Positions 15,082 to 56,497 of a stretch of 64,000 bases of DNA are shown here, one piece after another (positions within the stretch are counted from its first letter, which is position 1; each line of letters starts with the position of its first letter). The notes beneath the pieces were generated by a model. It saw only the letters and a program-made list of their open reading frames with translations, was not told the DNA's origin and did not search any database. The translations under genes and the position numbers were made by a program. Origin of the DNA: Desulfuromonadaceae bacterium (GTDB lineage: Bacteria; Desulfobacterota; Desulfuromonadia; Desulfuromonadales; Desulfuromonadaceae); the NCBI GenBank assembly GCA_016936455.1, contig JAFGXV010000047.1, forward strand, positions 20,627-84,626. Direction: 5' to 3'.

Positions 15082-16098
15082 TCAGCCGAAAAAATGGTTG
15101 AAACCGCGCGGCGCAACCGGCCGTGTTCGACCGTCGCTGTCAACCAGACAGAGGCCAGCTGACGGTTGCGTGATGGCGCCGATAGCGGTCAGTGGCAAGT
15201 CCAGCTCGCGGGCCAGCTGCTGCAACGCATCGTCGTGCGCAGCCGCAGCGGTGAACAGCAGTTCGTAATCCTCGCCACCCTGCAGCAGGGCGGAAAAATC
15301 CTCCGGCCAACGGGCGGTATGTTCACGGGCGGCCGTGGACCAGGGCAGGCTTGCCTGCTGGACACAGGCGCCGACGGCGGACTGCTCCAGAATATGGCCC
15401 AGATCGGCGAACAGCCCATCGGACAGATCGATCATGGCGGTGGCCAAGCCACGCTGCGCCAGCTGGCGACCCAGCGCCAGCCGCGGTGTTGGCCGATGGT
15501 GGCGCACCGCCAGCTCTGGCGGCGGCGTCTGGCCGCGGCTCAGCTGCAGCAGGGCCAGGGCGCTGTCGCCCAGGGTGCCCGAGACATACAGCCGGTCGCC
15601 GGGACGTGCACCGCTGCGCCGGATCAGCTGATCGCACGGCACGCTGCCCTGCACGGTGACGGAGATGAACAAGCCCTGGCCGGAGCGGCAGGTGTCGCCG
15701 CCGGACAAGATGGCTCCGGCCGCTGCCGTTTCATCGAGAAAGCCACGGCTGAAGTGATCGATTTCTTCCAGCGCCAGGTCAGGGGGCAGGCCGATGCCGA
15801 GAAAGATGGCGAGCGGCGTTCCACCCATGGCGGCGATATCGCTGAAATTGACGGCGGCGCTCTTGCGGCCTAAATCGTAGAGGTTGCACCAGTCGCGGCG
15901 GAAATGCACCCCTTCAATGAGCAGGTCGGTGCTGGTCAGCAGCAGTTCGCCCTCGGGCATGGCGTAGGCGCTGCAATCGTCACCGATTCCCAGAACCAGC
16001 CGTTCATTGCGGGTGTGTTCGAGGTGTTGCTTCAGCCGTTCGATCAGGCCGAATTCACCCAGCTCATTTAATGATTTTTCGACAGGAGTTTTTTTCAT
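15082..16098 (-). CDS. thiL: Thiamine-monophosphate kinase ThiL
   Basis: A 338-residue AIR-synthase-fold kinase that makes thiamine pyrophosphate from thiamine monophosphate, the last step of vitamin B1 synthesis. Visible motifs are GEFGLIERL, GIGDDCSAY (metal and nucleotide binding), TSTDLLIEGVHF, NFSDIAAMGG, ILSGGDT, DLSDGLFADL and GGEDYELLFT. The ATG at 16098 is preferred; an in-frame TTG at 16107 would add three residues, and neither has a strong ribosome site. It heads the minus-strand cluster with lolA, yajQ and rimO. About 245 AT-rich bases separate it from the divergent nfo gene and should hold both promoters. Confidence 0.93.
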   Translation of the reverse strand: MKKTPVEKSLNELGEFGLIERLKQHLEHTRNERLVLGIGDDCSAYAMPEGELLLTSTDLLIEGVHFRRDWCNLYDLGRKSAAVNFSDIAAMGGTPLAIFLGIGLPPDLALEEIDHFSRGFLDETAAAGAILSGGDTCRSGQGLFISVTVQGSVPCDQLIRRSGARPGDRLYVSGTLGDSALALLQLSRGQTPPPELAVRHHRPTPRLALGRQLAQRGLATAMIDLSDGLFADLGHILEQSAVGACVQQASLPWSTAAREHTARWPEDFSALLQGGEDYELLFTAAAAHDDALQQLARELDLPLTAIGAITQPSAGLCLVDSDGRTRPVAPRGFNHFFG

Positions 16099-42673: not shown

Positions 42674-43963
42674 TCAGCTGAATCCGAACAGCTTCGGGAA
42701 CAGGACCAGGATGCCCAGTACCAGCATTTGCAGCAGAATAAAGGGTATGGCTCCGCGGTAGATGTCGGTGGTGCGAACCTCGGGTGGCGCCACTCCTTTG
42801 AGATAAAAAAGACTGAAACCAAAGGGCGGTGTCAGAAATGAGGTTTGCAGGTTCATGGCGACCAGGATGGCGTACCACAGCGGATCGATCTGAAGTCTGT
42901 AGGCGATGGGGGCCAGAATCGGGACGATAATGTAGGCAATTTCGACGAAGTCGATAAAGAAGCCCAGAACCATGATGGCGCTCATGGAAAAAATGATGAA
43001 ACCCCATTTTTCACCTGGAAGCTGCATCATCAGATCCTCGACCAGATAGTCCCCCCCTGTATAGGTAAAGACCATGGAGAAAGCGGTGGCACCGACCAGG
43101 ATGGCAAAAACCATCGCCGTGACCTTGACGGTTTCGACCGCGCTGTCCCAGACCATGCACAGCGAAGCGCGGCGGTAAAACGCGGCAAGAACGATCGCGC
43201 CGACACCGCCGACGGCGGAGGACTCCGTGGGTGTGGCAACCCCGGAGATGATGGAGCCCAGCACGACGATGATCAGAATCAGGGGGGGCAGGATGGCTTT
43301 GAGGGCGACGAAAATCTGCTTGCGCCGTGTTTGCTGGTTATGGTGCAGCCGGATTGGCGGCGCAAGATCCTTGTTGAAGAACGTCACCACGAGAATATAG
43401 AGCACGTACACCAAAACCAGAGTCAGTCCGGGCCAGAAGGCCGCTCTGAACAGATCGCCGACCGGCTGCTGGAAGACATCGCCAAGGATAATCAGGATGA
43501 TGGAGGGCGGAATGATCTGGCCCAGGGTTCCTGCGGCACAGATGGTTCCGGTGGCCAGTTGTTTGTTGTAGTTGTATTTGAGCATGACGGGCAGGGAAAT
43601 AACGCCCATGGCCACGACGCTGGCCCCGACGACGCCGGTTGAGGCGGCAAGCAGGGCGCCAACCAGAACCGTCGAAATCGCAATACCACCGCGGATTTCA
43701 CCAAACAGCGAACCCATCGATTCGAGCAAGCTCTCCGCCAGTTTCGATTTCTGCAGGATGATGCCCATGAAAATAAACAGCGGGATCGCCATCAGGATGG
43801 TGTTGTTCATGATCGACCAGATGCGGTGGGGCATCATGGCAAAGATAGCGGGTCCTTCGGCATAGAGGCCAAAAAAGACAGCGACTCCACCAAAGGTGAA
43901 GGCGACGGGAAAGCCTACCAGAAGCAGAATGAGGGCGACGATGAACATGACAATGCCGATCAT
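42674..43963 (-). CDS. dctM: TRAP transporter large permease (DctM)
   Basis: A 429-residue inner-membrane protein with about 12 helices, the Na+-driven transport subunit of a TRAP system. Motifs: VGFPVAFTFGG, AIPLFIFMGIILQKS, ASTGVVGASVVAMGVISLPVML, GTICAAGTLGQIIPPSIILIILG and the late TPPFGFSLFYLKG. It is the last gene of the dctP-dctQ-dctM row. The start is the ATG at 43963. Confidence 0.94.
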   Translation of the reverse strand: MIGIVMFIVALILLLVGFPVAFTFGGVAVFFGLYAEGPAIFAMMPHRIWSIMNNTILMAIPLFIFMGIILQKSKLAESLLESMGSLFGEIRGGIAISTVLVGALLAASTGVVGASVVAMGVISLPVMLKYNYNKQLATGTICAAGTLGQIIPPSIILIILGDVFQQPVGDLFRAAFWPGLTLVLVYVLYILVVTFFNKDLAPPIRLHHNQQTRRKQIFVALKAILPPLILIIVVLGSIISGVATPTESSAVGGVGAIVLAAFYRRASLCMVWDSAVETVKVTAMVFAILVGATAFSMVFTYTGGDYLVEDLMMQLPGEKWGFIIFSMSAIMVLGFFIDFVEIAYIIVPILAPIAYRLQIDPLWYAILVAMNLQTSFLTPPFGFSLFYLKGVAPPEVRTTDIYRGAIPFILLQMLVLGILVLFPKLFGFS

Positions 43964-44043
43964 GGCAATGGATTCCTTCTTGTTTTAGAGCCGTGGCGTG
44001 CCGTTTGCGACATGGCAAGGGCAGCCGTCGTTGACGTCCCTGG

Positions 44044-44583
44044 TCAGAGAATGTTGTCGTCGTGAGAGGGGGGACGGGGCGTTTCCGTTCCGCGAAAAAT
44101 AGTGATCTGGCGCAGGATGAAACCAATCGTGGACAGACATAGAAAAACAAAAGAGACCGGGATGACCGCTTTGATTAGCCAGCGATGGGTTAAGCCGCCG
44201 GGGTCGCCACTGATTTCATGAAGCGTATAGGCTTCGTGGACAAACCAGAATGATCCTTTGATCACCAGAAAGCTGAGGGGGAAAATCAGCAGAACCGCAC
44301 CGGCGATATTGATCAGCGCCTTGGTTCGGGAAGACAGGTGATCGTAAAGGATGTCGACGCGCACATGACCGTCTTCTTTCAGGGCGTAGGCCACGCCGAA
44401 CAGAAAGACAATGGAAAACAGGTGCCACTCCATTTCCTGCAGGGCAATCGAGCCGGTACGGAAAAAATAGCGCATGATTGCATCATAAAACACATTGACC
44501 AGCATCAGGATCAGCAGCGCGGTCGATATGGCCCCGATCCAGTCGGTGAAACGGTCAATTTTCTGTTCAATCTTGGTCAGCAT
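44044..44583 (-). CDS. dctQ: TRAP transporter small permease (DctQ)
   Basis: A 179-residue protein with four helices, the small membrane partner of DctM. Family positions: helix 1 WIGAISTALLILMLVNVFYDAIMRYFF, then ALQEMEWHLFSIVFLFGVAYALKEDGHVRVDIL. The ATG at 44583 (MLTKIEQKID) is preferred; the open frame extends 21 codons further but without a ribosome site. It lies between dctP and dctM. Confidence 0.92.
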   Translation of the reverse strand: MLTKIEQKIDRFTDWIGAISTALLILMLVNVFYDAIMRYFFRTGSIALQEMEWHLFSIVFLFGVAYALKEDGHVRVDILYDHLSSRTKALINIAGAVLLIFPLSFLVIKGSFWFVHEAYTLHEISGDPGGLTHRWLIKAVIPVSFVFLCLSTIGFILRQITIFRGTETPRPPSHDDNIL

Positions 44584-44645
44584 AGCAGTGGCAGGTCTCT
44601 CTTGAAAGAGCGGCGCCGGACGACAGGTCCGGCGCCGACAGAACA

Positions 44646-45737
44646 TCAGTCTTCGAGGTTGTCTTTAAGATAGGCGTAGTCAGAAATTTCCGTCCATTTG
44701 CGGACTTTTTTCATGTAGGCCGCCTGCGAATCGTGAACTTCTTTAAAAATGGCATTGCTGGCACACGACTCCTCAACCAGTTCTTTGTTGGCCTGCTTCA
44801 TGGCGGCAATGATTTCTTTGGGGAAGGTGCGAACCTTGACGTTCGGATAATCTTTTTCAATAGAGGCCCAATTGACCGCACTTTCGTGATAGGAGCGAGC
44901 GTACATGTCGTAGGCGGCCAGTTCCATGGCAACGGTCAGAATCTTCTGCAGGTGGGGTGGCAGGGCATCAAATTTCTTCTGGTTGACCAGAAACTGCAAC
45001 TCTGTGGCCGGCTCGTGCCAGCCGGTGTAATAGTAGGGGGCAATTTTCTGGAAGCCCATATTCATGTCAAGCGACGGTCCGACCCATTCCAGTGCGTCAA
45101 TGGTTCCCCGGTCGAGAGCCGTATAGAGTTCGCCCGGTGCGATGTTGGTCACCACGACTCCCAGCTTGGAAAGAACTTCTCCGGCAAAGCCCGGAATCCG
45201 CATTTTGAGGCCCTTCAGGTCATCCAGGGTGTTGATCTCCTTGCGGAACCAGCCGCCCATCTGGTTGCCGGTGTTGCCGCCGGGGAAAGAATAGACGCCA
45301 TGCTGGTCGTAAACCTTTTTCATCAGCTCCATGCCGCCGCCATAGTAGAACCAGGCATACTGTTCCGGTGCGATCATACCGAAGGGCATGGTGGTAAACA
45401 GTAACGCATTGGGGTCTTTGCCTTTCCAGTAATAGGACGCGGAATGGCCCATTTCGTACTGACCCATCTTGACCATGTCGAGAATGCCGAAGGCTGATTT
45501 ATGCTTGTTGGCCGAGTCGATGCGAATCTCCATTTCGCCATTGGACATTTCTTTAACCATATCAGCCATTTTTATAACGGCATCTCCAAAGATTGGAAAG
45601 CCGCTACCCCAGGTCTGTGCCAGTTTCCAGCGGTACGTCGGTGCAGCGAAGGCCGGGGCGACGAGTCCAGCAGCAAGCACAGCCGCCAAGGTAAAAAGAG
45701 CGATAAATAAGCGTTGGGAACCGAGCCGTCCTTTCAT
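44646..45737 (-). CDS. dctP: TRAP transporter substrate-binding protein (DctP family, TakP-like)
   Basis: A 363-residue periplasmic protein. The signal peptide is residues 1-32, ending VAPAFAA. The mature part follows the TRAP binding-protein pattern: RWKLAQTWGSGFPIFGD, then LKGLKMRIPGFAGEVLSKLGV with the ligand-binding arginine, and EWVGPSLDMNMGFQKIAPYYYTGWHEP. This last segment resembles TakP-type binding proteins for alpha-keto acids, so pyruvate or other 2-oxo acids are possible substrates. The ATG at 45737 has GGAGGA 5-10 bp upstream. Confidence 0.92.
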   Translation of the reverse strand: MKGRLGSQRLFIALFTLAAVLAAGLVAPAFAAPTYRWKLAQTWGSGFPIFGDAVIKMADMVKEMSNGEMEIRIDSANKHKSAFGILDMVKMGQYEMGHSASYYWKGKDPNALLFTTMPFGMIAPEQYAWFYYGGGMELMKKVYDQHGVYSFPGGNTGNQMGGWFRKEINTLDDLKGLKMRIPGFAGEVLSKLGVVVTNIAPGELYTALDRGTIDALEWVGPSLDMNMGFQKIAPYYYTGWHEPATELQFLVNQKKFDALPPHLQKILTVAMELAAYDMYARSYHESAVNWASIEKDYPNVKVRTFPKEIIAAMKQANKELVEESCASNAIFKEVHDSQAAYMKKVRKWTEISDYAYLKDNLED

Positions 45738-45830
45738 GTTTTCCTCCTGCGTGTTGTGATCGGCTTCGCCCGATTTCAACTGTCATCGCGACGGGATGGG
45801 CCGATCAAGCCTTGTTCAATATGAATAAAC

Positions 45831-45898: not shown

Positions 45899-47221
45899 TT
45901 AGCGCGTCGACGGAATTTTTTGTCCCAGTGGCAGTTCTTTGAACCGTCCACCATAAACAATGGGATCGCCACGATAGCCGAGCTGCTTCAGGTCCAGATA
46001 GTCGTTGTTGCCTTGCAGGGCTACTGTCGATTGACCGATCTGCTGCAGGAAGCTGACATCTGTTGGCTGGTGAGCCAGCTTCTTGAAATCGACATGGCGG
46101 CTGTCCTGATGGCAGCGGTCGCAGGTTTTTTCACCGCGCAGGCTGTCGTGGCACTGAATGCAGCTCAACGCCATCTTGGCCGGCATCACCTCATGTTCCA
46201 GCCGCCAGTACATCCAGGTTTCCTGCCAGTGCCACTGGCCGCTGTAGGGCAGCCCGGCACTGGCCATGCCATCGATAAAGGCCATTTGCCAGTCGTAATG
46301 TTTCCAGTAGGCCGTGGTGTCCTCGGCATTGCGTGGAAACAGATGCGGGATCAACAGGGTGTGATAGAGCGGGTCAAAGGCTTGCACCCCCTTCATGATC
46401 TTGAACGGGGTGATGCGGGCGGCCGGGTCACGGATGGAGCCCAGCGGGCGGGTGAGCAATACCGGTCCCTGATCCAGAGGGACCGCATCACCCAACAGCA
46501 CCCGTGCCATGTTGCCGTTGAACCAGTCGTAGCTGGGTTTGACGGCGCGCTGCCAGCGGAATTCGCCCTTCATCGGATGATAGTCCGGAAGAGGCGTGCC
46601 GGTGCCCAGATCCATCATGGCCGGTTTGCGCTGCTTGTCGCCGGCCTTGGACCAGTCCCACCAGGTCTTGGTTGGTGCGCACTTGGCGTACACCGGTGAA
46701 TGGCAGGTGTTGCAGGCCAGGGTGCGACTGTGGCGGTTCAGGTGGTGATCGAGCAGGCTGTTGCCGAGATGGGGCGCCTCGGAATGGCACTGCTCGCAAC
46801 GCACAACACCTTCGGCCGCGGCCACGGAAGAACTGCGCCCGGCAATGCGGTGCTGGCGCGTGGTATGGCAGGTGCGGCAGCTGAAATCGAGGCTGCCCAT
46901 GTGCACATCGCAGTTGGGATCTGGCCGAGCCAGATTGCCGCCCATGTCCGCATGCTTGATGGCGTCGCCGCCACCGCCATTGAAATGGCAGCTGCCACAA
47001 CTCACCCGGCTGCTGTGGCCGACCTTCTCGGCAATGGGTTTGAGGTCGAGGTCCTTGTCCGGCCAGCCCGCCGAGGTCGGCGTTTTTTTATAGTGGCCGG
47101 TGGTGTCGTGACAGACCAGGCAGTCCATGCGCCCGGTGTCAGTAAAATCAAAAGTGCTGTCTTTCCAGCCGTATCCTGCGTGACAACTTGTGCAACGAGA
47201 CTCGTTGCTGATGGGGCTCAC
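45899..47221 (-). CDS. Multiheme cytochrome c, tetrathionate reductase (OTR) family: part after the in-frame UGA
   Basis: A 440-codon frame that continues directly, in phase, from the 5' part at 47222-48001; only a UGA (47224-47222) divides them. It holds eight CxxCH heme sites: CTSCH, CLVCH, CGSCH, CRTCH, CEQCH, CNTCH, CIQCH and CDRCH. The pattern ESRCTSCHAGYGW, DCLVCHDTTGHYKK and VSCGSCHF is that of octaheme tetrathionate reductase-type cytochromes. This part has no signal peptide and no ribosome site at its GTG, so it could not be exported or receive hemes on its own. It must be read through the UGA or be dead. No frameshift or further stop is present. Confidence 0.8.
   Translation of the reverse strand: MSPISNESRCTSCHAGYGWKDSTFDFTDTGRMDCLVCHDTTGHYKKTPTSAGWPDKDLDLKPIAEKVGHSSRVSCGSCHFNGGGGDAIKHADMGGNLARPDPNCDVHMGSLDFSCRTCHTTRQHRIAGRSSSVAAAEGVVRCEQCHSEAPHLGNSLLDHHLNRHSRTLACNTCHSPVYAKCAPTKTWWDWSKAGDKQRKPAMMDLGTGTPLPDYHPMKGEFRWQRAVKPSYDWFNGNMARVLLGDAVPLDQGPVLLTRPLGSIRDPAARITPFKIMKGVQAFDPLYHTLLIPHLFPRNAEDTTAYWKHYDWQMAFIDGMASAGLPYSGQWHWQETWMYWRLEHEVMPAKMALSCIQCHDSLRGEKTCDRCHQDSRHVDFKKLAHQPTDVSFLQQIGQSTVALQGNNDYLDLKQLGYRGDPIVYGGRFKELPLGQKIPSTR
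47192..47221 (-). promoter_or_regulatory. Candidate bacterial SECIS element after the UGA codon
   Basis: On the minus strand, 13 nt after the UGA, GCAACGA pairs perfectly with TCGTTGC (47192-47208) around a GUC loop. The loop lies 21-23 nt after the UGA. In E. coli fdhF the SECIS loop (GGUC) stands ~19-22 nt after the UGA on a short stem, so spacing and loop bases agree. The hairpin lies within codons for SNESRCTSCH. It could also be chance pairing, which an alignment would test. Confidence 0.55.
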
Positions 47222-48001
47222 TCAGTAGTTGTTGAGGGCCGTCGTCCCCTTGCCGTGCAGCACCTCCCGGCTGCGGTCTTGCGTGTAGGGGGAGGGGCCG
47301 CGCCATAGCCAATGGGCGGTCTGCAGCATGTCGTGAGCCTGCGCCTCATGACAGCGCAGGCATTCCGCCGTCACCTGCAGCGCGTCGGGGTGCTCCGGCA
47401 GCTTGACCAGCTTGGCGTGATCCGGCACCTGTTTCAGGTGACAGTCGGTGCACACCTGGGGGCCGCTGCGCTGTTGTTTGTGGCAGCCGATACAGCGCTG
47501 GTGGTAAGCGGCTTTCAGCCCCGGGCGTTCGGGAACGCGTTCATCAAAGGCCTGTTGATGACAGGCCGAGCAGCGCACGGTTTCCGGATGCGGGCTATAA
47601 GCAACGTCCTGCTCCGGCCGCAGGTGATGGCAGACGCTGCAGTCGCCGGCTTGCGCCGCGTGCTGACCGTGATTGAAGCGCACGCCTGTGTAATGATCCT
47701 CGACCGCGCTGATCAGCGGGCTGTTGAGGTAGAAGTAGGTGGTTTTGACCGCTTTGACCGTCAGCCCCAGATCATGCAGATGCTCGCGGCGTCGCAGCGG
47801 CCCCTCGCGGCGGATGGCTTCGATCAGGGGAACCGTTTGGCGGGCGCGCTCCAGCGCCTGCTGTTGCCCCGGGGCCAGCCAGTCGGTGGGAGCCCCGGCC
47901 CCCGCTGCGCGGACCGGTTCGGGCTGAGGGTCGAGCAGGGCAACGGCGAGAAGCAGGGCAACGAAAACGCAGCGCTGAAACGCTTGAGAGGTTTTTCTCA
48001 T
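47222..48001 (-). CDS. Multiheme cytochrome c, tetrathionate reductase (OTR) family: signal peptide, c3-like module and start of core
   Basis: This 259-codon frame begins with a signal peptide (hydrophobic residues 11-22, cleavage near VRAAG). After ~85 residues comes a four-heme module (CSVCH, CSACH, CIGCH, CTDCH) with spaced histidines such as FNHGQH, like class III cytochromes c. A fifth site, CLRCHEAQAHDMLQTAHW, is the first heme of the OTR core. The frame ends HGKGTTALNNY then UGA, where OTR proteins, as I recall, read NNFC, and the core continues without a break. Together with the 3' part the protein would have 700 residues and 13 CxxCH sites. It overlaps the NrfD-type gene by 4 bp. Reduction of tetrathionate, nitrite or another oxidant in the periplasm is the likely role. 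Confidence 0.85.
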   Translation of the reverse strand: MRKTSQAFQRCVFVALLLAVALLDPQPEPVRAAGAGAPTDWLAPGQQQALERARQTVPLIEAIRREGPLRRREHLHDLGLTVKAVKTTYFYLNSPLISAVEDHYTGVRFNHGQHAAQAGDCSVCHHLRPEQDVAYSPHPETVRCSACHQQAFDERVPERPGLKAAYHQRCIGCHKQQRSGPQVCTDCHLKQVPDHAKLVKLPEHPDALQVTAECLRCHEAQAHDMLQTAHWLWRGPSPYTQDRSREVLHGKGTTALNNY

Positions 48002-49203
48002 GGCGTTTTCTCCTTTTTTTCGGCCAGCACCGGCAGCCAGGTGACGGCCAGCCGGTAGCAGAACATCAGGGCGGCGACAAAACCGCAGGTGATGAGAATT
48101 TCACCCAATGCTGGGCTGTAGGGGGTCGTCGACAGCGGAGGGGTAAAGGCGACGATGAACACGTTGATGCGGTTGAGTACGACCCCGCCGACAATCAGCA
48201 GCGCAGCGATAAAGAGCGTGCGCCGTGAACGCCGGACCTTGGCGCGCAGCAGCATCAGAAACGGCAGCACCACCCCGAGCCCCATTTCAGCGAGAAAGGC
48301 GTTGCTCTGAGTTGTGCCGTCGAGCAGGCTGGTCCAGCTGCCGCGCCACAGCAGATCGCCGACCTTGAGGGCCAGATAGAGGCCGAGGAGGACGATGGTA
48401 AAGCGCGACAACGGTGTCAGCACCTCCATCTCGTCATCCGTGCCCAGGGAACTGCTGGCCAGGGTGGCTTCAACAATCACCATGGGAAAGCCCGCGGCGA
48501 TGGCCGAGAGCAGAAACAGCAGCGGCAGCAGCGGCGTGTACCACAGCGGGTGGACCTTGGTGGGGGCAATCAGCATCAGCGAGCCGAGGCTGGACTGGTG
48601 CATGCAGGACAGCACCACGCCGGCAACAATGAAAATCCACAGGATCGGTCGCAACCGCCGGTTGATGGCGGCGACGAGCTTCTGCAGCGGGTGGCCCGGC
48701 CTCGCGTCGCGCAGCCCCTCGTCGACCACGGGCACGAATTCGATATACAGCACATGGAGGTAGACCAGCACGCACATCGCCACTTCAAACAGTACGGAGT
48801 GGTGATTCTGGAAGAAAATGGGCTTCCAGATGGCCCAGGAGCGACCGATGTCCACCAGCAGGCCGAGGACGACGAAGCTGTAGCCGAGCATGGCCGTCAG
48901 CAGGGCCGGGCGCACCACGGTTTCATAGCGGTGACGGCCCCAGATGTGGGCCAGCGCCGCGGTGGTGAAGCCGCCGGCGGCCAGGGCGACGCCCGTGGCG
49001 ACATCGATGGCCACCCACAGCCCCCAGGGGCGGGCGTTGCTCAGATTGGACACCGCACCGATGCCGCCGGTGAAACGAACCACCAGCGTTACGGCGGCCG
49101 CCGCCATGAAAGCCAGCATCACCAATACGCCGGGCGTCCACAGGGGGCGGCGCAGGGCAACAGGTGGATGGGAGTGAGAGTGGGAATGAGGATGACCGCT
49201 CAT
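47998..49203 (-). CDS. NrfD/HybB-type quinol-interacting membrane subunit
   Basis: A 401-residue protein with about ten helices and a histidine-rich N-terminus (HPHSHSHSHPP). It belongs to the NrfD/PsrC/HybB group: NARPWGLWVAIDVATGVALAAGGFTTAAL, then ARPGHPLQKL and CMHQSSLGSLMLIAP with the conserved histidine and glutamine. Such subunits oxidise quinol and pass electrons to a ferredoxin-type partner. It is joined by ATGA overlaps to the ferredoxin gene before and the cytochrome gene after, implying a three-part membrane complex. Confidence 0.93.
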   Translation of the reverse strand: MSGHPHSHSHSHPPVALRRPLWTPGVLVMLAFMAAAAVTLVVRFTGGIGAVSNLSNARPWGLWVAIDVATGVALAAGGFTTAALAHIWGRHRYETVVRPALLTAMLGYSFVVLGLLVDIGRSWAIWKPIFFQNHHSVLFEVAMCVLVYLHVLYIEFVPVVDEGLRDARPGHPLQKLVAAINRRLRPILWIFIVAGVVLSCMHQSSLGSLMLIAPTKVHPLWYTPLLPLLFLLSAIAAGFPMVIVEATLASSSLGTDDEMEVLTPLSRFTIVLLGLYLALKVGDLLWRGSWTSLLDGTTQSNAFLAEMGLGVVLPFLMLLRAKVRRSRRTLFIAALLIVGGVVLNRINVFIVAFTPPLSTTPYSPALGEILITCGFVAALMFCYRLAVTWLPVLAEKKEKTP

Positions 49204-50129
49204 ACGTCACCTCCCGCGTGGCCCGCCGAATTTTCCGGCTGCTGGAGCTGTTTGCGCCGGTTAAAGAAGAACAGGCCCGACAGCAGGGTGAAGAGCAGCG
49301 CCGGCGACCACAGATAACTGAACAGGCTATGTTGCAGGGTTTCCGTCAGCTTGGGCAGCGGCTTGTTCGGTAGCGGAATGAAACCGAGCTTGCTGAAGGG
49401 AACAGCTGACAGATAGAGCCAGGAAGTGCCGCCGACCTCATTTTCGCCGTAGATCTGCTGGATGTAGCGGCCGGGATGCTCCTTCAGCCGTCGCCGCGCC
49501 AGTTTCAGCAGGGCGCTGCGCTTGCCGAAGGTGATGGCTTCGGTGGGACAGATGGTGGCGCAGGCGGGCGGCAGCTGTTTTTCTCGCAGTCGCTGCTCGC
49601 AAAAGGTACATTTCATCACCCGCGGTGTCAGCGGGTCGTGATATTCGTAGGCCGGAATTTCGAAGGGACAGGCCACCATGCAGTAGCGGCAGCCGATACA
49701 TTTGTTTACATCATAGTGCACGGCGCCGTGAGCGGTTTTGCTCAGGGCGCCGGTGATGCAGGCCGAGGCACAGGCTGGATCCTGGCAGTGCATGCACTGC
49801 ACCTTTACATAATCGGCCACCAGCTGCCCCTCCGGATTCACGCGGCCACTGTGATAGCGATTAATTACGGTGAAGCGTGCCGCATCGGGCCGCCGTTGGT
49901 TATCCAGCACCGTCAGATCCTCAAACGACTTCATCGGCAGGGGAAGATCATGCTCTTGCTGACAGGCCTGCTCGCATTTACGACAGCCGATGCAGCGTGT
50001 CAGGTCGACCAGGGCTGCGTAGCTATCCGCCGGGGCGCGCGACTGCCAAGCGGCCGCACTGTTGGGGCGCAAGGCGACGGCCCCGATTGCTCCCCCCAGC
50101 GACATCTTCAGAAAAGAGCGCCGTCTCAT
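49200..50129 (-). CDS. Periplasmic four-cluster ferredoxin subunit (HybA/DsrO-like) with Tat signal and C-terminal anchor
   Basis: A 309-residue protein. The N-terminus RRRSFLKMSLGGAIGAVAL is a twin-arginine export signal. Four Fe-S motifs follow: CIGCRKCEQACQQEH, CMHCQDPACASAC, CIGCRYCMVACPFEIP and CTFCEQRLREKQLPPAC...CP. A C-terminal hydrophobic stretch (LFSYLWSPALLFTLLSGLFF) anchors it to the membrane. It should carry electrons between the NrfD-type subunit and the multiheme cytochrome. First gene of the minus-strand operon; a Fur-like palindrome lies about 55 bp upstream. Confidence 0.94.
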   Translation of the reverse strand: MRRRSFLKMSLGGAIGAVALRPNSAAAWQSRAPADSYAALVDLTRCIGCRKCEQACQQEHDLPLPMKSFEDLTVLDNQRRPDAARFTVINRYHSGRVNPEGQLVADYVKVQCMHCQDPACASACITGALSKTAHGAVHYDVNKCIGCRYCMVACPFEIPAYEYHDPLTPRVMKCTFCEQRLREKQLPPACATICPTEAITFGKRSALLKLARRRLKEHPGRYIQQIYGENEVGGTSWLYLSAVPFSKLGFIPLPNKPLPKLTETLQHSLFSYLWSPALLFTLLSGLFFFNRRKQLQQPENSAGHAGGDV

Positions 50130-50483: not shown

Positions 50484-52085
50484 TTATCCTGCACTGAACG
50501 GTTGATTGAAGCAGACGACTTGGTTGCGTCCTTGGTTCTTTGCGGCATACAGGGCTTGGTCAGCTTGGCTGAGCAGTGTCTGGGCTTCATCTGCCTGACC
50601 TGGAATGGTCGTGGCGACACCAACGGAGATCGTCATGTTCCGGTCTGTGATGGAAAATTCGTGTTTGATGTGCAGGGCCTGAACCGTTTTTCGCAGCTTT
50701 TCAGCCAGAGTCGTTGCCGCATCTGATGGCGTATCGGGGAGAAGGCAGATGAATTCTTCACCGCCGTAGCGAGCGACCAGATCGCGTGGCCGCAATACCA
50801 GATCCTTCAGCACGGATGAAATGATCTGAAGAATCTTATCCCCGGCGGGGTGGCCATAGTTGTCATTGAAGTTTTTGAAAAAATCGATGTCGATCATCAG
50901 CAGTGACAGCGGTCGCTGCTCGCGTTGGCCGGCCTGCCACTCCTGCTGATAGCAGGCATTGAACTTGCGGCGATTGGCGAGCTCGGTCAGTGGGTCTTTC
51001 TCGCTGAGTTCCATCAACGCCCGTTGGGCTTTTTCCCGTACCCGGATTTCATTCGTCAGCTGCTGGTTGAGAATTTCCAATTGTTGCGTTCGCTGGGCCA
51101 CTTTGTGCTGAAGGTGTTGCTGGAACGCTTCAATTTTGGAGAGAAATACTCCGGTTCCAAAGTAGAGCACCAGCAGCGTGATGACAATAACAAGTGCCGC
51201 AACTGTTAGAACGCGATGATGCGTTGACAGCATGTTGCGGTACTCGGCGGTAATATCGAGCACGGGCAGGATGCTGCCGAGCTGTACTCCCGCGAAGTTT
51301 TTCAGGATGATCGGAGAAAATTTGAGCAGACAGCGCGTATCGAAATGCAATGAAGTGCAATTCTGAGCGTTGACGAGCTTAGAGAGCTCATTGTGGTCCT
51401 CAAAAAGTTTGCCGGAATGCTCGACCAGTGTCACCTCGTCAAAGGCAGGCCCGGTTTGATTTTCAATCAGAGTGCAGTGCTGGTTTTCCAGGAAAATACC
51501 ACTCTCTACGTTGAAAATCTGGCTGGCCATGTTGAGGGCGCGCAAGGGGCGAATGACGAAAACAACGGCACCAATGAACCGTTGATCAACAAAGACCGGC
51601 TGGCTGATGCGGTAGGCGAGACCACGATAGGCAATGCTCAGGCCACCAAGCGGCTGCCGCGATTCCAGCGCTTTGGCCACAAAGGGAAACTGGCGGACAT
51701 CGTCCCCAAATCTGTCGGGTCTGAGGCTGCGCAACAGAACCGTGCCATCGGCTTGAAGAAAATTGAGCGATTCGAAGTAGGGGTCTTGTCGCTTGAGGCG
51801 CTCGACTATCGGGGCGATCCGTTGATGCAGCGCAGGGCGGTTGCCGGCGGCGAACGCCTCGATAATATCAGGGTGCATTTCGACGAAACGGGCCGAGAGA
51901 TTGGCGTAGCGGTTGTTGACTTCGGAGATTTCCAGTTCAATGCCGTTGCGCAGATTCTGTTCAACCTGCGAAAGCGTTTTGGCGTGGTAACAGTCGTTGT
52001 GGCGGGTGTAGAGGAATGCCAGAGCAGAAGAGAGGATCAGCTCGAGGACAAGAACCAGCAGAATGATTTTAAGCCGGATCGTCAT
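50484..52085 (-). CDS. Membrane-bound diguanylate cyclase with periplasmic sensor
   Basis: A 533-residue protein: helix 1 at about residues 5-25, a periplasmic region of ~260 residues (probably a dCache-like sensor), helix 2 at about 293-316 and a short coiled coil. A GGDEF-type domain follows (KDPLTELANRRKFN, IDIDFFKNFNDNYGHPAGD, ARYGGEEFICLL). The active motif is GGEEF and an RxxD inhibitory site (RPRD) lies five residues before it, so the enzyme should make c-di-GMP and be feedback-controlled. It follows a response regulator gene by 3 bp on the same strand. Confidence 0.93.
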   Translation of the reverse strand: MTIRLKIILLVLVLELILSSALAFLYTRHNDCYHAKTLSQVEQNLRNGIELEISEVNNRYANLSARFVEMHPDIIEAFAAGNRPALHQRIAPIVERLKRQDPYFESLNFLQADGTVLLRSLRPDRFGDDVRQFPFVAKALESRQPLGGLSIAYRGLAYRISQPVFVDQRFIGAVVFVIRPLRALNMASQIFNVESGIFLENQHCTLIENQTGPAFDEVTLVEHSGKLFEDHNELSKLVNAQNCTSLHFDTRCLLKFSPIILKNFAGVQLGSILPVLDITAEYRNMLSTHHRVLTVAALVIVITLLVLYFGTGVFLSKIEAFQQHLQHKVAQRTQQLEILNQQLTNEIRVREKAQRALMELSEKDPLTELANRRKFNACYQQEWQAGQREQRPLSLLMIDIDFFKNFNDNYGHPAGDKILQIISSVLKDLVLRPRDLVARYGGEEFICLLPDTPSDAATTLAEKLRKTVQALHIKHEFSITDRNMTISVGVATTIPGQADEAQTLLSQADQALYAAKNQGRNQVVCFNQPFSAG

Positions 52086-52088
52086 GGT

Positions 52089-52724
52089 TTATCCGTTCAG
52101 AAGATCGAATAAGACTCCCGTGGTTACCGCGTCCTGGCGGTTGTTGACATTCAGTTTTCGGTAGATGTTTTTGATGTGGGTCTGCACCGTAGACATGCTC
52201 ACGAGATGATCTTCGGCAATCTGGCTATAGGTTTTTCCTGCACGGAGTTGCGCCAGAACCTGTTGCTCCTTTTTCGTTAGAACCTGGCGTTGTGGGCCGA
52301 TAGCCTGAAAATAGTTGGACAGTCGCCTTGCCATGTGCGGGCTGATCAGTCCACCTCCGTTGGCGACCAGTGCCAGCCCGCGCAGGAGGTCTTCGTCTGA
52401 GGCTTTTTGGCTGAGATAGCCAACGGCTCCCACGGCAAAGGCATCGAGCAGTTCCTTGCAGCTGTCTGAGGTGCTGTAGACGATGTAATCGCTGCCGGGA
52501 TGGGCCTGCTTGGCTGTTTCGATAAAGTGCAGGCCGTTCATCCCGGGCAGGTCAACATCGACCAGGTAGAGATTGGCCGCATTGAACCGGGCCTCTCTCA
52601 GGGCCTCCTCTGCGCAGCAGAAGTTGCCAATCAGCTCGAAATTTTCTGCAGTGGATAAAACCTGTTCCAGATGACGGGAGATATCCTGATTCTGTTCTAG
52701 ATAGGCGACGGTAAATATCTTCAT
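52089..52724 (-). CDS. NarL/LuxR-family response regulator
   Basis: A 211-residue two-domain regulator. The receiver has the phospho-acceptor Asp56 (LVDVDLPGMNG), the Thr/Ser switch (YSTSDS) and Lys in LSQKAS. The HTH region reads LTKKEQQVLAQLRAGKTYSQIAEDHLVSMSTVQTHIKNIYRKL, cut here at known LuxR-type positions. There is no histidine kinase gene beside it; the only partner is the diguanylate cyclase downstream. The promoter must lie in 52725-52860. Confidence 0.92.
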   Translation of the reverse strand: MKIFTVAYLEQNQDISRHLEQVLSTAENFELIGNFCCAEEALREARFNAANLYLVDVDLPGMNGLHFIETAKQAHPGSDYIVYSTSDSCKELLDAFAVGAVGYLSQKASDEDLLRGLALVANGGGLISPHMARRLSNYFQAIGPQRQVLTKKEQQVLAQLRAGKTYSQIAEDHLVSMSTVQTHIKNIYRKLNVNNRQDAVTTGVLFDLLNG

Positions 52725-53164: not shown

Positions 53165-56100
53165 ATGTCGATTCGTGTTGCCTGTCATCATGTCACCCGC
53201 TATCTCTTTGACCGCCCGGTCAACCTGTCGCCCCATATCCTGCGCCTGCGCCCGGCCCCGCACTGCCGTACGCCCATTCTCGCGTATTCCATGACCATCA
53301 AGCCGGAAAAGCACTTTATCAACTGGCAGCAGGATGCGTTCGGCAACTATCTGGCGCGGCTGGTGTTCCCGGAAAAAAGCCGTGAGCTGAGCATCGATAT
53401 CGAAGTCATTGCCGACATGACGTCCTACAATCCGTTCGACTTTTTTGTCGAGGAATATGCTGAAAATTATCCTTTCAGCTATTCGGAACAGGAACAGCAG
53501 GAACTGGCGCCCTATCTGAAATGCAGCGAAGCCGGACCCCTGTTGCAAAAATGGCTGGACGACGTGGACCGCAGTGAGAAAAACACCGTCGACTTTGTGG
53601 TGGACCTCAATCGGCGGCTGCAGCAACAGATTAACTATTCAGTGCGCATGGAGCCGGGCGTGCAGAGCTGTGAAACAACTCTGGAGCGGAAAATCGGCTC
53701 CTGCCGCGACACGGCCTGGTTGCTGGTGGAGATTCTGCGTCATCTCGGGCTGGCGGCGCGCTTTGTCAGTGGCTATCTGGTCCAGTTAACGGCCGATGAA
53801 AAATCCCTCGACGGTCCGTCCGGGCCGGAAGCCGACTTCACCGATTTGCATGCCTGGACCGAGGTCTATGTGCCCGGTGCCGGCTGGGTCGGTCTTGATC
53901 CCACCTCGGGGCTGCTGGCCGGTGAAGGGCACATCCCGCTGGCCTGCACCCCGACACCGGCCAGTGCCGCGCCGCTCACCGGCGCCACCGACCCGTGCGA
54001 GGTGACGTTTGAGCACCGTAACAGCGTGCAGCGCATCCATGAAGATCCACGCGTCACCAAGCCCTACAGTGATGAGCAATGGCAGTGCATTGATGCGCTC
54101 GGTCAGCTGGTGGATGAGGAGTTGGTGGAAGGTGATGTGCGTCTGACCATGGGCGGTGAGCCGACCTTTGTCTCCATCGACAACATGGATGGCGCCGAGT
54201 GGAACAGTCGTGCTGATGGCCCGCACAAACGGCAACTCGCTTACGATCTGACCCTGCGTCTGCGCGAGGCCTTTGCCCAGGGCGGCCTGCTCCATTTCGG
54301 CCAGGGCAAGTGGTATCCGGGCGAGCCACTGCCGCGCTGGGCTTACAGCTGCTTCTGGCGCAAGGATGGCGTGGCCCTGTGGCAGAACCCGGCGCTGCTG
54401 GCCGACATCCAGCACGACTACGGCGTGACTTCGGCCCTGGCGGAACAGTTTTCGCGTGAGCTGACCCGCCGCCTCGGTCTGCGCGAGGCTTACCTGACTC
54501 CCGGCTATGAAGATACCCTGTACTGGCTGTGGAAAGAGGGCAGCATGCCCGACAACATTGACCCGACCAAGGCCGACCTCAAAGACGATCGCGAGCGCCG
54601 TGCCCTGGCCAAGGTGCTGTCCCATGGCCTCGACACACCGGTGGGTTTTGCCCTGCCGTTGCAGTGGGATCGTTTCGCCGAGCGCTGGAAGAGTGGGCCG
54701 TGGGATTTCCGCCGCGAACGCATGTTTCTGATCCCCGGCGACTCAGGCATGGGCCTGCGTCTGCCACTGGACAGCCTGCCGTGGATCGCGCCGGACAAAA
54801 AAGAGATCGACAGTCCGCCGAGTTTATTTGATAACCTGCCGCAGCTGCCGGATCGCGCCAGCCTTGATGCGGCGAGCACGCTCGACAAACAGCCCGTCGA
54901 GATGCCCGAACCGAACTATGTCGATGTGCCCCATACCGCACTGTGCGTCGAAGCTCGCGAGGGGCGGCTGTACATCTTCATGCCACCGCTGACTACGCTG
55001 GAATCCTATGTTATCCTGCTGGCCGCCATTGAGGCCTGTGCCGGACACCTGAAGCTGCCCGTGGTCATTGAAGGCTACGAGCCGCCGCGCGACTGGCGGC
55101 TGGAGCGGTTCAACGTCACGCCTGACCCCGGCGTCATCGAAGTCAATATCCATCCGTCGGCCAACTGGCAGGAACTGGTCGAACGCACCACGGTGCTTTA
55201 CGAACAGGCGCGCCTCAGTCGCCTGGGCACGGAAAAGTTCATGCTCGACGGCCGTCACACCGGCACCGGAGGTGGCAACCATATCACCCTCGGCGGACCG
55301 ACCCCGGCCGATAGCCCGATGCTGCGCCGACCTGACGTGCTGCGTAGCCTGATCACCTTCTGGCAGCACCATCCGGGCTTATCCTATCTGTTTTCCGGGG
55401 TGTTCATCGGGCCGACCAGTCAGGCGCCGCGCATTGATGAGGCGCGCGACGATGCCCTGTACGAATTGGAGATCGCCTTTTCCCGCATCCCCAAAGGGGA
55501 AGTGGTGGCACCGTGGCTGGTGGACCGGTTGCTGCGCAATCTGCTCATCGACGTTACCGGCAACACCCACCGCACCGAGTTCTGTATTGACAAGCTTTAT
55601 TCGCCGGACAGCCCGACGGGACGCCTCGGCATTCTTGAGATGCGCGGTTTTGAGATGCCGCCCCATGCGCGCATGAGCCTGGTGCAAAACCTGCTGATCC
55701 GTACGTTGCTGGCACGATTCTGGAAAGAGCCCTATCACCATGACCTGATCCGTTGGGGCACCAGCCTCCATGACCGCTATTTGCTGCCGTGGTTTGTCCG
55801 TCAGGATCTCAAAGAGGTGGTGGCCGATCTCAATCGCTCCGGCTATCCGTTTCAGCTGGAATGGTTTGATCCGTTCTTCGAATTCCGCTTTCCGCGGTAT
55901 GGCACGGTACAGATTGATGCCGTGGAGCTTGAATTGCGCTTTGCCATCGAACCCTGGCATGTGCTGGGCGAGGAGGTGTCCAGCCAGGGGACCTCGCGTT
56001 TTGTCGACTCGTCGACGGAACGGCTGCAGGTGCATGCCCGCCACCTGACCGAAGGGCGTCACGTCCTTGCGTGCAACGGTCGCCGCCTGCCGCTGGTCAA

Positions 56101-56497
56101 TACCGGTCGACAGGGGGAATTCGTTGCCGGGGTGCGCTACCGCGCCTGGCAGCCGCCGTCAGCGCTGCATCCGACGATTGCCCCGCACAGCCCCCTGGTT
56201 TTCGATATTATCGATACCTGGAATGGCCGCTCCATCGGTGGTTGTACCTACCATGTGTCGCACCCTGGGGGGCGCAATTACGATGTGTTTCCGGTCAATG
56301 CCATCACCGCCGAATCGCGGCGGCGCGACCTGTTTAACATCACCGAACACACATCGGGACCATTGCAGCCTCACCCTCAGCTGGAGACGTTGGGCAGGTT
56401 CATGCCCCACGCTCAAGTGCCGGCACCTTTGGCTCCGGCCGGCGAAGAGCCCAATGAAGAGTTCCCCTGTACGCTTGATTTACGTCGTCAACCCTGA
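53165..56497 (+). CDS. Transglutaminase-like protease/ligase with DUF2126 domain
   Basis: A 1110-residue cytosolic protein. The N-terminal ~290 residues are a transglutaminase-type domain with the triad visible as Cys180 in GSCRDTAW, His in LHAWTEVYVPGAGW and Asp in GLDPTSGL. The remaining ~800 residues are DUF2126, with conserved motifs FTMGGEPTFVS in the form LTMGGEPTFVS, GKWYPGE, TGTGGGNHITLGG and LGILEMRGFEMPPH. The family occurs with circularly permuted ATP-grasp and alpha-E proteins and is predicted to make or process peptides; no substrate is known. It is the first gene of a five-gene cluster. Confidence 0.9.
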   Translation: MSIRVACHHVTRYLFDRPVNLSPHILRLRPAPHCRTPILAYSMTIKPEKHFINWQQDAFGNYLARLVFPEKSRELSIDIEVIADMTSYNPFDFFVEEYAENYPFSYSEQEQQELAPYLKCSEAGPLLQKWLDDVDRSEKNTVDFVVDLNRRLQQQINYSVRMEPGVQSCETTLERKIGSCRDTAWLLVEILRHLGLAARFVSGYLVQLTADEKSLDGPSGPEADFTDLHAWTEVYVPGAGWVGLDPTSGLLAGEGHIPLACTPTPASAAPLTGATDPCEVTFEHRNSVQRIHEDPRVTKPYSDEQWQCIDALGQLVDEELVEGDVRLTMGGEPTFVSIDNMDGAEWNSRADGPHKRQLAYDLTLRLREAFAQGGLLHFGQGKWYPGEPLPRWAYSCFWRKDGVALWQNPALLADIQHDYGVTSALAEQFSRELTRRLGLREAYLTPGYEDTLYWLWKEGSMPDNIDPTKADLKDDRERRALAKVLSHGLDTPVGFALPLQWDRFAERWKSGPWDFRRERMFLIPGDSGMGLRLPLDSLPWIAPDKKEIDSPPSLFDNLPQLPDRASLDAASTLDKQPVEMPEPNYVDVPHTALCVEAREGRLYIFMPPLTTLESYVILLAAIEACAGHLKLPVVIEGYEPPRDWRLERFNVTPDPGVIEVNIHPSANWQELVERTTVLYEQARLSRLGTEKFMLDGRHTGTGGGNHITLGGPTPADSPMLRRPDVLRSLITFWQHHPGLSYLFSGVFIGPTSQAPRIDEARDDALYELEIAFSRIPKGEVVAPWLVDRLLRNLLIDVTGNTHRTEFCIDKLYSPDSPTGRLGILEMRGFEMPPHARMSLVQNLLIRTLLARFWKEPYHHDLIRWGTSLHDRYLLPWFVRQDLKEVVADLNRSGYPFQLEWFDPFFEFRFPRYGTVQIDAVELELRFAIEPWHVLGEEVSSQGTSRFVDSSTERLQVHARHLTEGRHVLACNGRRLPLVNTGRQGEFVAGVRYRAWQPPSALHPTIAPHSPLVFDIIDTWNGRSIGGCTYHVSHPGGRNYDVFPVNAITAESRRRDLFNITEHTSGPLQPHPQLETLGRFMPHAQVPAPLAPAGEEPNEEFPCTLDLRRQP

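Follow-up and report, generated by a model that had tools for sequence, protein, structure and literature searches.

An in-frame UGA predicted to encode selenocysteine in an octaheme tetrathionate reductase-family cytochrome with 13 heme motifs

The window, by which we mean the whole 64,000-nucleotide stretch of DNA analyzed here, carries on its minus strand a cytochrome gene whose reading frame is interrupted once, raising the question of whether the interrupting UGA ends a protein or encodes selenocysteine (Sec). Our preferred answer, with a probability of about 0.88, is that the gene encodes an octaheme tetrathionate reductase (OTR)-family cytochrome with 13 heme motifs, in which the UGA is read as Sec, likely by way of a 17-nucleotide hairpin, and that this Sec would act at the catalytic heme. 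Sec at codon 260 is predicted from sequence with high confidence, while we infer the substrate and the catalytic role.

Reading frame and protein architecture

The earlier note on this DNA had described two abutting frames of the same phase parted by a single UGA, and its coordinates hold. Translation of the frame from 48001 to 45899 (minus strand) gives 700 residues with exactly one internal stop, the TGA at 47224-47222, which is codon 260. The division of hemes proposed there, five before the UGA and eight after it, is borne out by a count of 13 CXXCH motifs, with the first five at residues 121, 144, 170, 184, and 214 and the remaining eight at residues 270, 294, 335, 375, 402, 430, 614, and 627. 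When the UGA is read through, query residues 207-620 align with the Shewanella oneidensis OTR (PDB 1SP3) across the junction (E 3e-113), and the whole cytochrome scores 483.9 bits against the family profile TIGR04315, above the cut-off of 375, so the joined protein matches OTR on both sides of the UGA, as had been claimed.

The protein is an OTR-family (TIGR04315) cytochrome with a c3-like N-terminal domain, and it may have tetrathionate reductase activity. Approximately residues 1-33 (47902..48001, minus strand) resemble an export signal by eye, and an AlphaFold model of the cytochrome (mean pLDDT 79.8) places a hydrophobic helix at residues 2-22, followed by a low-confidence linker at residues 24-36. 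The N-terminal part matches c3-type domains, and the four heme motifs at residues 121-188 (47430..47641, minus) form a c3-like tetraheme domain. The OTR core follows at residues 206-619 (46145..47386, minus) and contains eight CXXCH motifs, while the 13th motif, residues 627-631 (46109..46123, minus), lies outside the part aligned with 1SP3. The eight core motifs and the fold of 1SP3, features of the OTR family, are thus both present, and 1SP3 is also the best PDB match of the model (TM 0.83 by target length). Counted along the alignment, residue 260 (47222..47224, minus), the predicted Sec, corresponds to Cys64 of 1SP3, Asp346 to Asp150, and Lys349 to Lys153. Cys64, Asp150, and Lys153 of 1SP3 were reportedly found by Mowat and colleagues in 2004 to line the pocket of catalytic heme 2.

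Codon 260 in relatives and the selenocysteine machinery

Loci of relatives were taken from a named-genome scan (68 loci) and from searches that covered 136 genomes belonging to the order and 395 genomes drawn from the phylum. In the phylum search, which returned 87 rows, all 31 rows with TGA were read but only 39 of the 56 without it, and from the order search we read one row in addition to those supplied with loci. The position could be aligned in 164 loci, and removal of eight identical cores left 156 distinct loci. Among these, 63 have UGA at codon 260, 91 have a Cys codon there, one has Phe, and one has Thr, counts in which UGA is over-represented because the TGA rows were read fully and the others in part. 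The TGA falls exactly at codon 260 in 31 of 31 TGA rows of the phylum search and in all eight TGA rows of the order search with E < 1e-30. Pairs of UGA and Cys in related genomes, which the earlier note had proposed as a check, are therefore found, with the same UGA in other assemblies, including six other genomes of the host's own family (order search) and the named carriers Desulfocicer vacuolatum DSM 3385 (L028) and Desulfamplus magnetovallimortis (L043).

The claim that the UGA stands in place of a Cys codon is supported, with one qualification. 1SP3 has NNFC at this site and most homologues have Cys, but Leu, Ala, Thr, or Phe occurs in some. Among the best 120 of 1240 database matches, the position could be aligned in 58 proteins, with 49 Cys (the query UGA counted as Cys), seven Leu, one Ala, and one Thr. 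Located by motif in 121 proteins, drawn from the same best 120 of 1240 matches, it is Cys in 103, Leu in 11, and Ala in one, with six unmatched, three of which are N-terminally cut fragments. The adjoining Asn257 and Asn258 are invariant in the 58 aligned proteins (again among the best 120 of 1240 matches). A thiol or selenol is thus not required in every family member. Full-length relatives with Leu at this position include P0106, P0110, P0112, P0113, P0116, P0118, and P0120, and these proteins may have another substrate or may have lost activity.

An interrupted frame could also come from a nonsense mutation or a sequencing error in an otherwise normal Cys-type OTR gene, in other words a fresh pseudogene, given that UGA is one base away from a Cys codon and that the host assembly is fragmented and 79% complete. 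One relative gives this explanation some substance. The unextended OTR gene L119 (G074:C33:14000-18000) has UGA at codon 260 with neither of the hairpins described below and keeps Pro268; its genome, G074, has selB and also holds Cys copies, so L119 may be a decaying or misread paralogue, and it is possibly no more than decay or a sequence error. For the present gene, a fresh pseudogene is already contradicted by the recurrence of the UGA in relatives, the six other genomes of the same family and 63 of the 156 distinct loci, and by hairpin codons that do not change. The dN/dS ratio is also similarly low on both sides of the UGA, near 0.1 against L090 (0.109 before and 0.091 after) and between 0.11 and 0.28 on either side against L093, L091, and L028. 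We regard a fresh pseudogene as extremely improbable, and the recurring UGA and the low dN/dS on both sides argue against chance or damage confined to this gene.

The UGA might instead be a true stop, with two proteins made and the second started at the GTG next to it. Such a GTG directly follows the UGA here and in L093 (G039), and a public Desulfuromonas thiophila OTR record, P0105, begins at this GTG; from residue 6 on, it is identical to the part of L093 after the UGA. A second protein of this kind would begin inside the 1SP3-like core and would carry eight heme motifs without an export signal, the Cys forms of the family are single chains, and in most relatives that share the type A hairpin described below, ATC or ATT follows the UGA. 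Two separate proteins are therefore very improbable, and P0105, which lacks everything before the UGA because the record begins right after it, is at least one public record from which part of the protein is missing.

Reading the UGA as Sec also calls for the decoding machinery, and the search for selA, selB, selC, and selD suggested in the earlier note recovered selA, selB, selD, and tRNA-Sec from the host genome, all within 8 kb (contig C10:55520-63459). The tRNA-Sec scores 68 bits, above its cut-off, and ARAGORN agrees. The host selD (L120, G000:C10:52000-66000) itself contains a single in-frame UGA (SAG-U-AAKLG) with an 8-bp stem after it, and from its sequence is likely a second selenoprotein. 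Formate dehydrogenase alpha (TIGR01591) had been considered as the second Sec control and gave two partial matches below the cut-off with no internal stop; selD was used in its place. In the window itself, a selD-like stretch at 15316-16023 (minus) scores 72.9 bits, below the selD cut-off, and is probably another member of the same fold.

The presence of selB was compared across the named-genome set, of which 48 of 66 entered and L076 was left out. A selB above the cut-off was found in 22 of 26 UGA genomes (fragments in G146 and G160, none in G144 and G159) and in 8 of 21 other genomes (20 Cys and one Phe, with a fragment in G164). Within the phylum, the corresponding values are 34 of 37 UGA genomes and 41 of 43 Cys genomes (43 of 54 Cys genomes being compared), and this comparison was dropped as evidence because selB is nearly universal there. 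Overall, the interpretation of the gene as a selenoprotein, first put forward in the earlier note, is supported.

Two hairpins after the UGA and the history of the predicted selenocysteine

Just after the UGA, at nucleotides 17-33 counted from its U, the transcript can form a SECIS-like stem-loop with a 7-bp stem, GCAACGA-GUC-UCGUUGC (47192..47208, minus), the last three bases of which are the codon for the first Cys of heme motif 6. We take this hairpin to agree with the loop and distance rules of known SECIS elements. Its consensus, GCAACGAGKCUCGUUGC (type A), occurs in 33 of the 63 UGA genes, 30 with the N-terminal extension and three without (L144, L160, and L166). A second hairpin, CUGGUGC-AGKU-GCACCAG at nucleotides 21-38 (type B), occurs in 29 of 63, including one variant (L051), and presumably looks like the apical portion of the E. 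coli fdhF SECIS. One or the other is present in 62 of 63 UGA genes compared to none of 91 Cys genes, and stems of at least 7 bp are present in 62 of 63 compared to two of 91. Neither pattern has a match elsewhere in the 64-kb window, and Rfam, searched with 46900-47500 and with seven relatives, returned only matches below the gathering score and no SECIS family. In two genomes a UGA gene of type B coexists with a Cys copy (L136 with L179 in G364, and L139 with L180 in G507), and G315 contains one UGA-type OTR of each hairpin kind (L138 and L160).

The stem of a single gene is weak evidence. Under synonymous recoding, 3-8% of draws reach the same stem length in the type A genes and L051 that were sampled, and 18-31% do so in two full type B genes. 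Across 29 type A genes, codons 265-270 are free of synonymous variation and rank at the top of 240 six-codon windows, for which the median in this set is 48% identical synonymous codons, and no such peak at the hairpin codons was found in 57 Cys loci. The type A stem pairs are invariant across 33 genes, so covariation is absent for this type, while the type B stem shows one two-sided change (C-G to U-A), plus a few G-U changes or breaks.

Each kind of hairpin is paired with residues of its own in the protein. Pro268 is found in 76 of 91 Cys genes compared to one of 63 UGA genes, the exception being the hairpin-less L119. All 33 type A genes have Glu267 together with Ala268 (25) or Ser268 (8), Trp267 and Cys268 are found in the 28 full type B genes, and the type B variant L051 has Gly267 and Cys268. 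These counts are not independent events, since the loci are related. Each hairpin would then be an RNA solution fitted to its own protein context, with its cost paid at the residue two before heme motif 6, and the two kinds together show that a need for RNA structure within a coding region can fix protein residues.

A quick tree was built from 154 of 156 cores, with residues 258-272 masked and the short cores L050 and L095 omitted. Sec versus Cys requires seven changes on this tree, compared to at least 39 in 200 label shuffles. The 28 extended type A genes it includes cluster together (SH-aLRT 99), nested in a grade of extended Cys genes, while the three unextended type A genes are placed elsewhere, among Cys genes, and a single clade of all 31 type A genes is rejected (p-AU 1.3e-50). 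Type B requires at least two changes. Sec may have arisen repeatedly, or it may be ancient and have disappeared repeatedly, and the change counts fit both. A broader proposal, for which we judge the case evenly balanced, is that Sec entered the OTR catalytic pocket more than once through two unrelated hairpins, each matched to residue 267 (Glu in one case, Trp in the other) and each imposing a particular substitution for Pro268 next to the CXXCH motif, and that the outcome is a widespread selenium-dependent respiratory reductase of sulfur compounds in anaerobes, hidden in databases as truncated genes.

Partner genes, proposed mechanism, and known systems

Upstream of the cytochrome gene lie two genes that overlap in series. 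The first, for an NrfD/HmcC-like membrane subunit (47998..49203, minus), shares four bases with the cytochrome gene, and the second encodes an HmcB-like 4Fe-4S (FeS) subunit (49200..50129, minus) whose N-terminus, MRRRSFLKMS, looks by eye like a twin-arginine signal. An NrfD-like gene adjoins 45 of 45 distinct extended loci, whether Cys or Sec, and an FeS gene (at least 45% identity) stands beside 33 of the 45, with the other flanks mostly too short to reach it. Of the unextended loci, 69 have more than 3.5 kb, and among these weak matches (26-29% identity) appear only at L069 and L141. Downstream, at 42674-45779, are genes for a TRAP transporter (DctP, DctQ, and DctM), which were dropped as partners because, within the flanks available, they were absent from all 113 other distinct loci searched, many with flanks of just 1.5 kb. 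Just upstream of the FeS, NrfD-like, and OTR genes and on the same strand, 50484-52724 encodes two possible regulators, a GGDEF protein that has a dCache sensor and a response regulator of the LuxR type. The stretch 53165-56497 encodes a protein of 1110 residues that combines a transglutaminase-like core with a putative amidoligase domain (DUF2126).

In the mechanism that we propose, the hairpin in the mRNA would recruit SelB with Sec-tRNA during translation, and the full-length chain would be exported and receive its hemes in the periplasm. Electrons would pass from the quinol/quinone pool to the NrfD-like subunit, then by way of the 4Fe-4S subunit and the c3-like domain into the OTR core and on to the substrate. 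Sec260, positioned like Cys64 of Shewanella OTR, would adjoin the catalytic heme and could serve as a nucleophile or redox partner on a substrate with S-S or S-O bonds, such as tetrathionate, faster than a thiol.

The enzyme probably acts on oxidized sulfur compounds. An octaheme protein from Beggiatoaceae, a possible member of the OTR family, is reported to have reached up to 93 μmol/min/mg with tetrathionate compared to 1.3 with nitrite (PMC6449678), and tetrathionate is for this reason our best guess of the substrate. An inserted Sec could have a job other than catalysis on a sulfur substrate, for example as a heme ligand, in redox protection, or in the reduction of nitrite, hydroxylamine, selenium, or another oxyanion. 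The Leu or Ala at the Sec position of some full-length relatives would fit such a role, and reduction of nitrite and hydroxylamine by an octaheme cytochrome from Shewanella is named in the title of a report. We nonetheless think a role of this kind unlikely, although it carries appreciable weight, given the much faster reaction of the Beggiatoaceae protein with tetrathionate and the fact that 154 of 156 distinct loci have Cys or Sec here, beside the invariant asparagines. If the preferred reading is true, a respiratory multiheme enzyme of anaerobic bacteria would use selenium at its likely catalytic site.

Several known systems resemble this one in part. The neighboring genes match HmcB (347.5 bits) and HmcC (289.3 bits) of the Hmc complex known from sulfate reducers, but both fall below the equivalog cut-offs (420 and 550, respectively), and the cytochrome is an OTR that reaches 52 of the 400 bits set for HmcA, so that all three Hmc components fail their equivalog cut-offs. 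ExtKL, like the present protein, is a multiheme c-type cytochrome with one Sec, as given in a table of a 2026 review (PMC13188914), but it belongs to another family, NF040886, which is absent among the six NCBIfam matches of the present protein. The table also lists a tetrathionate reductase family octaheme c-type cytochrome, WP_331457571.1, as a "GenBank annotated" selenoprotein (PMC13188914). That protein likewise belongs to TIGR04315, has one Sec, and is known from the listing, which comes without a motif. Among the matches listed in open-licence literature, we found no study of OTR-family selenoproteins beyond this entry, so the family is already listed as a selenoprotein by annotation and is otherwise apparently unstudied. 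What appears to be new is the position of the Sec, its breadth, the two kinds of hairpin, the change of Pro268 beside the heme motif, and the extended form with its conserved NrfD-like partner.

The closest known system is the Shewanella oneidensis OTR itself, which the present protein resembles in core alignment, family score, and best fold match, and from which it differs by Sec in place of Cys64, the c3-like N-terminal domain, the 13th CXXCH motif, and the NrfD-like and FeS partner genes. If the prediction is true, Sec and Cys versions of one fold exist, the Cys form of which has been crystallized, and the chemistry of a Sec beside a heme becomes directly testable.
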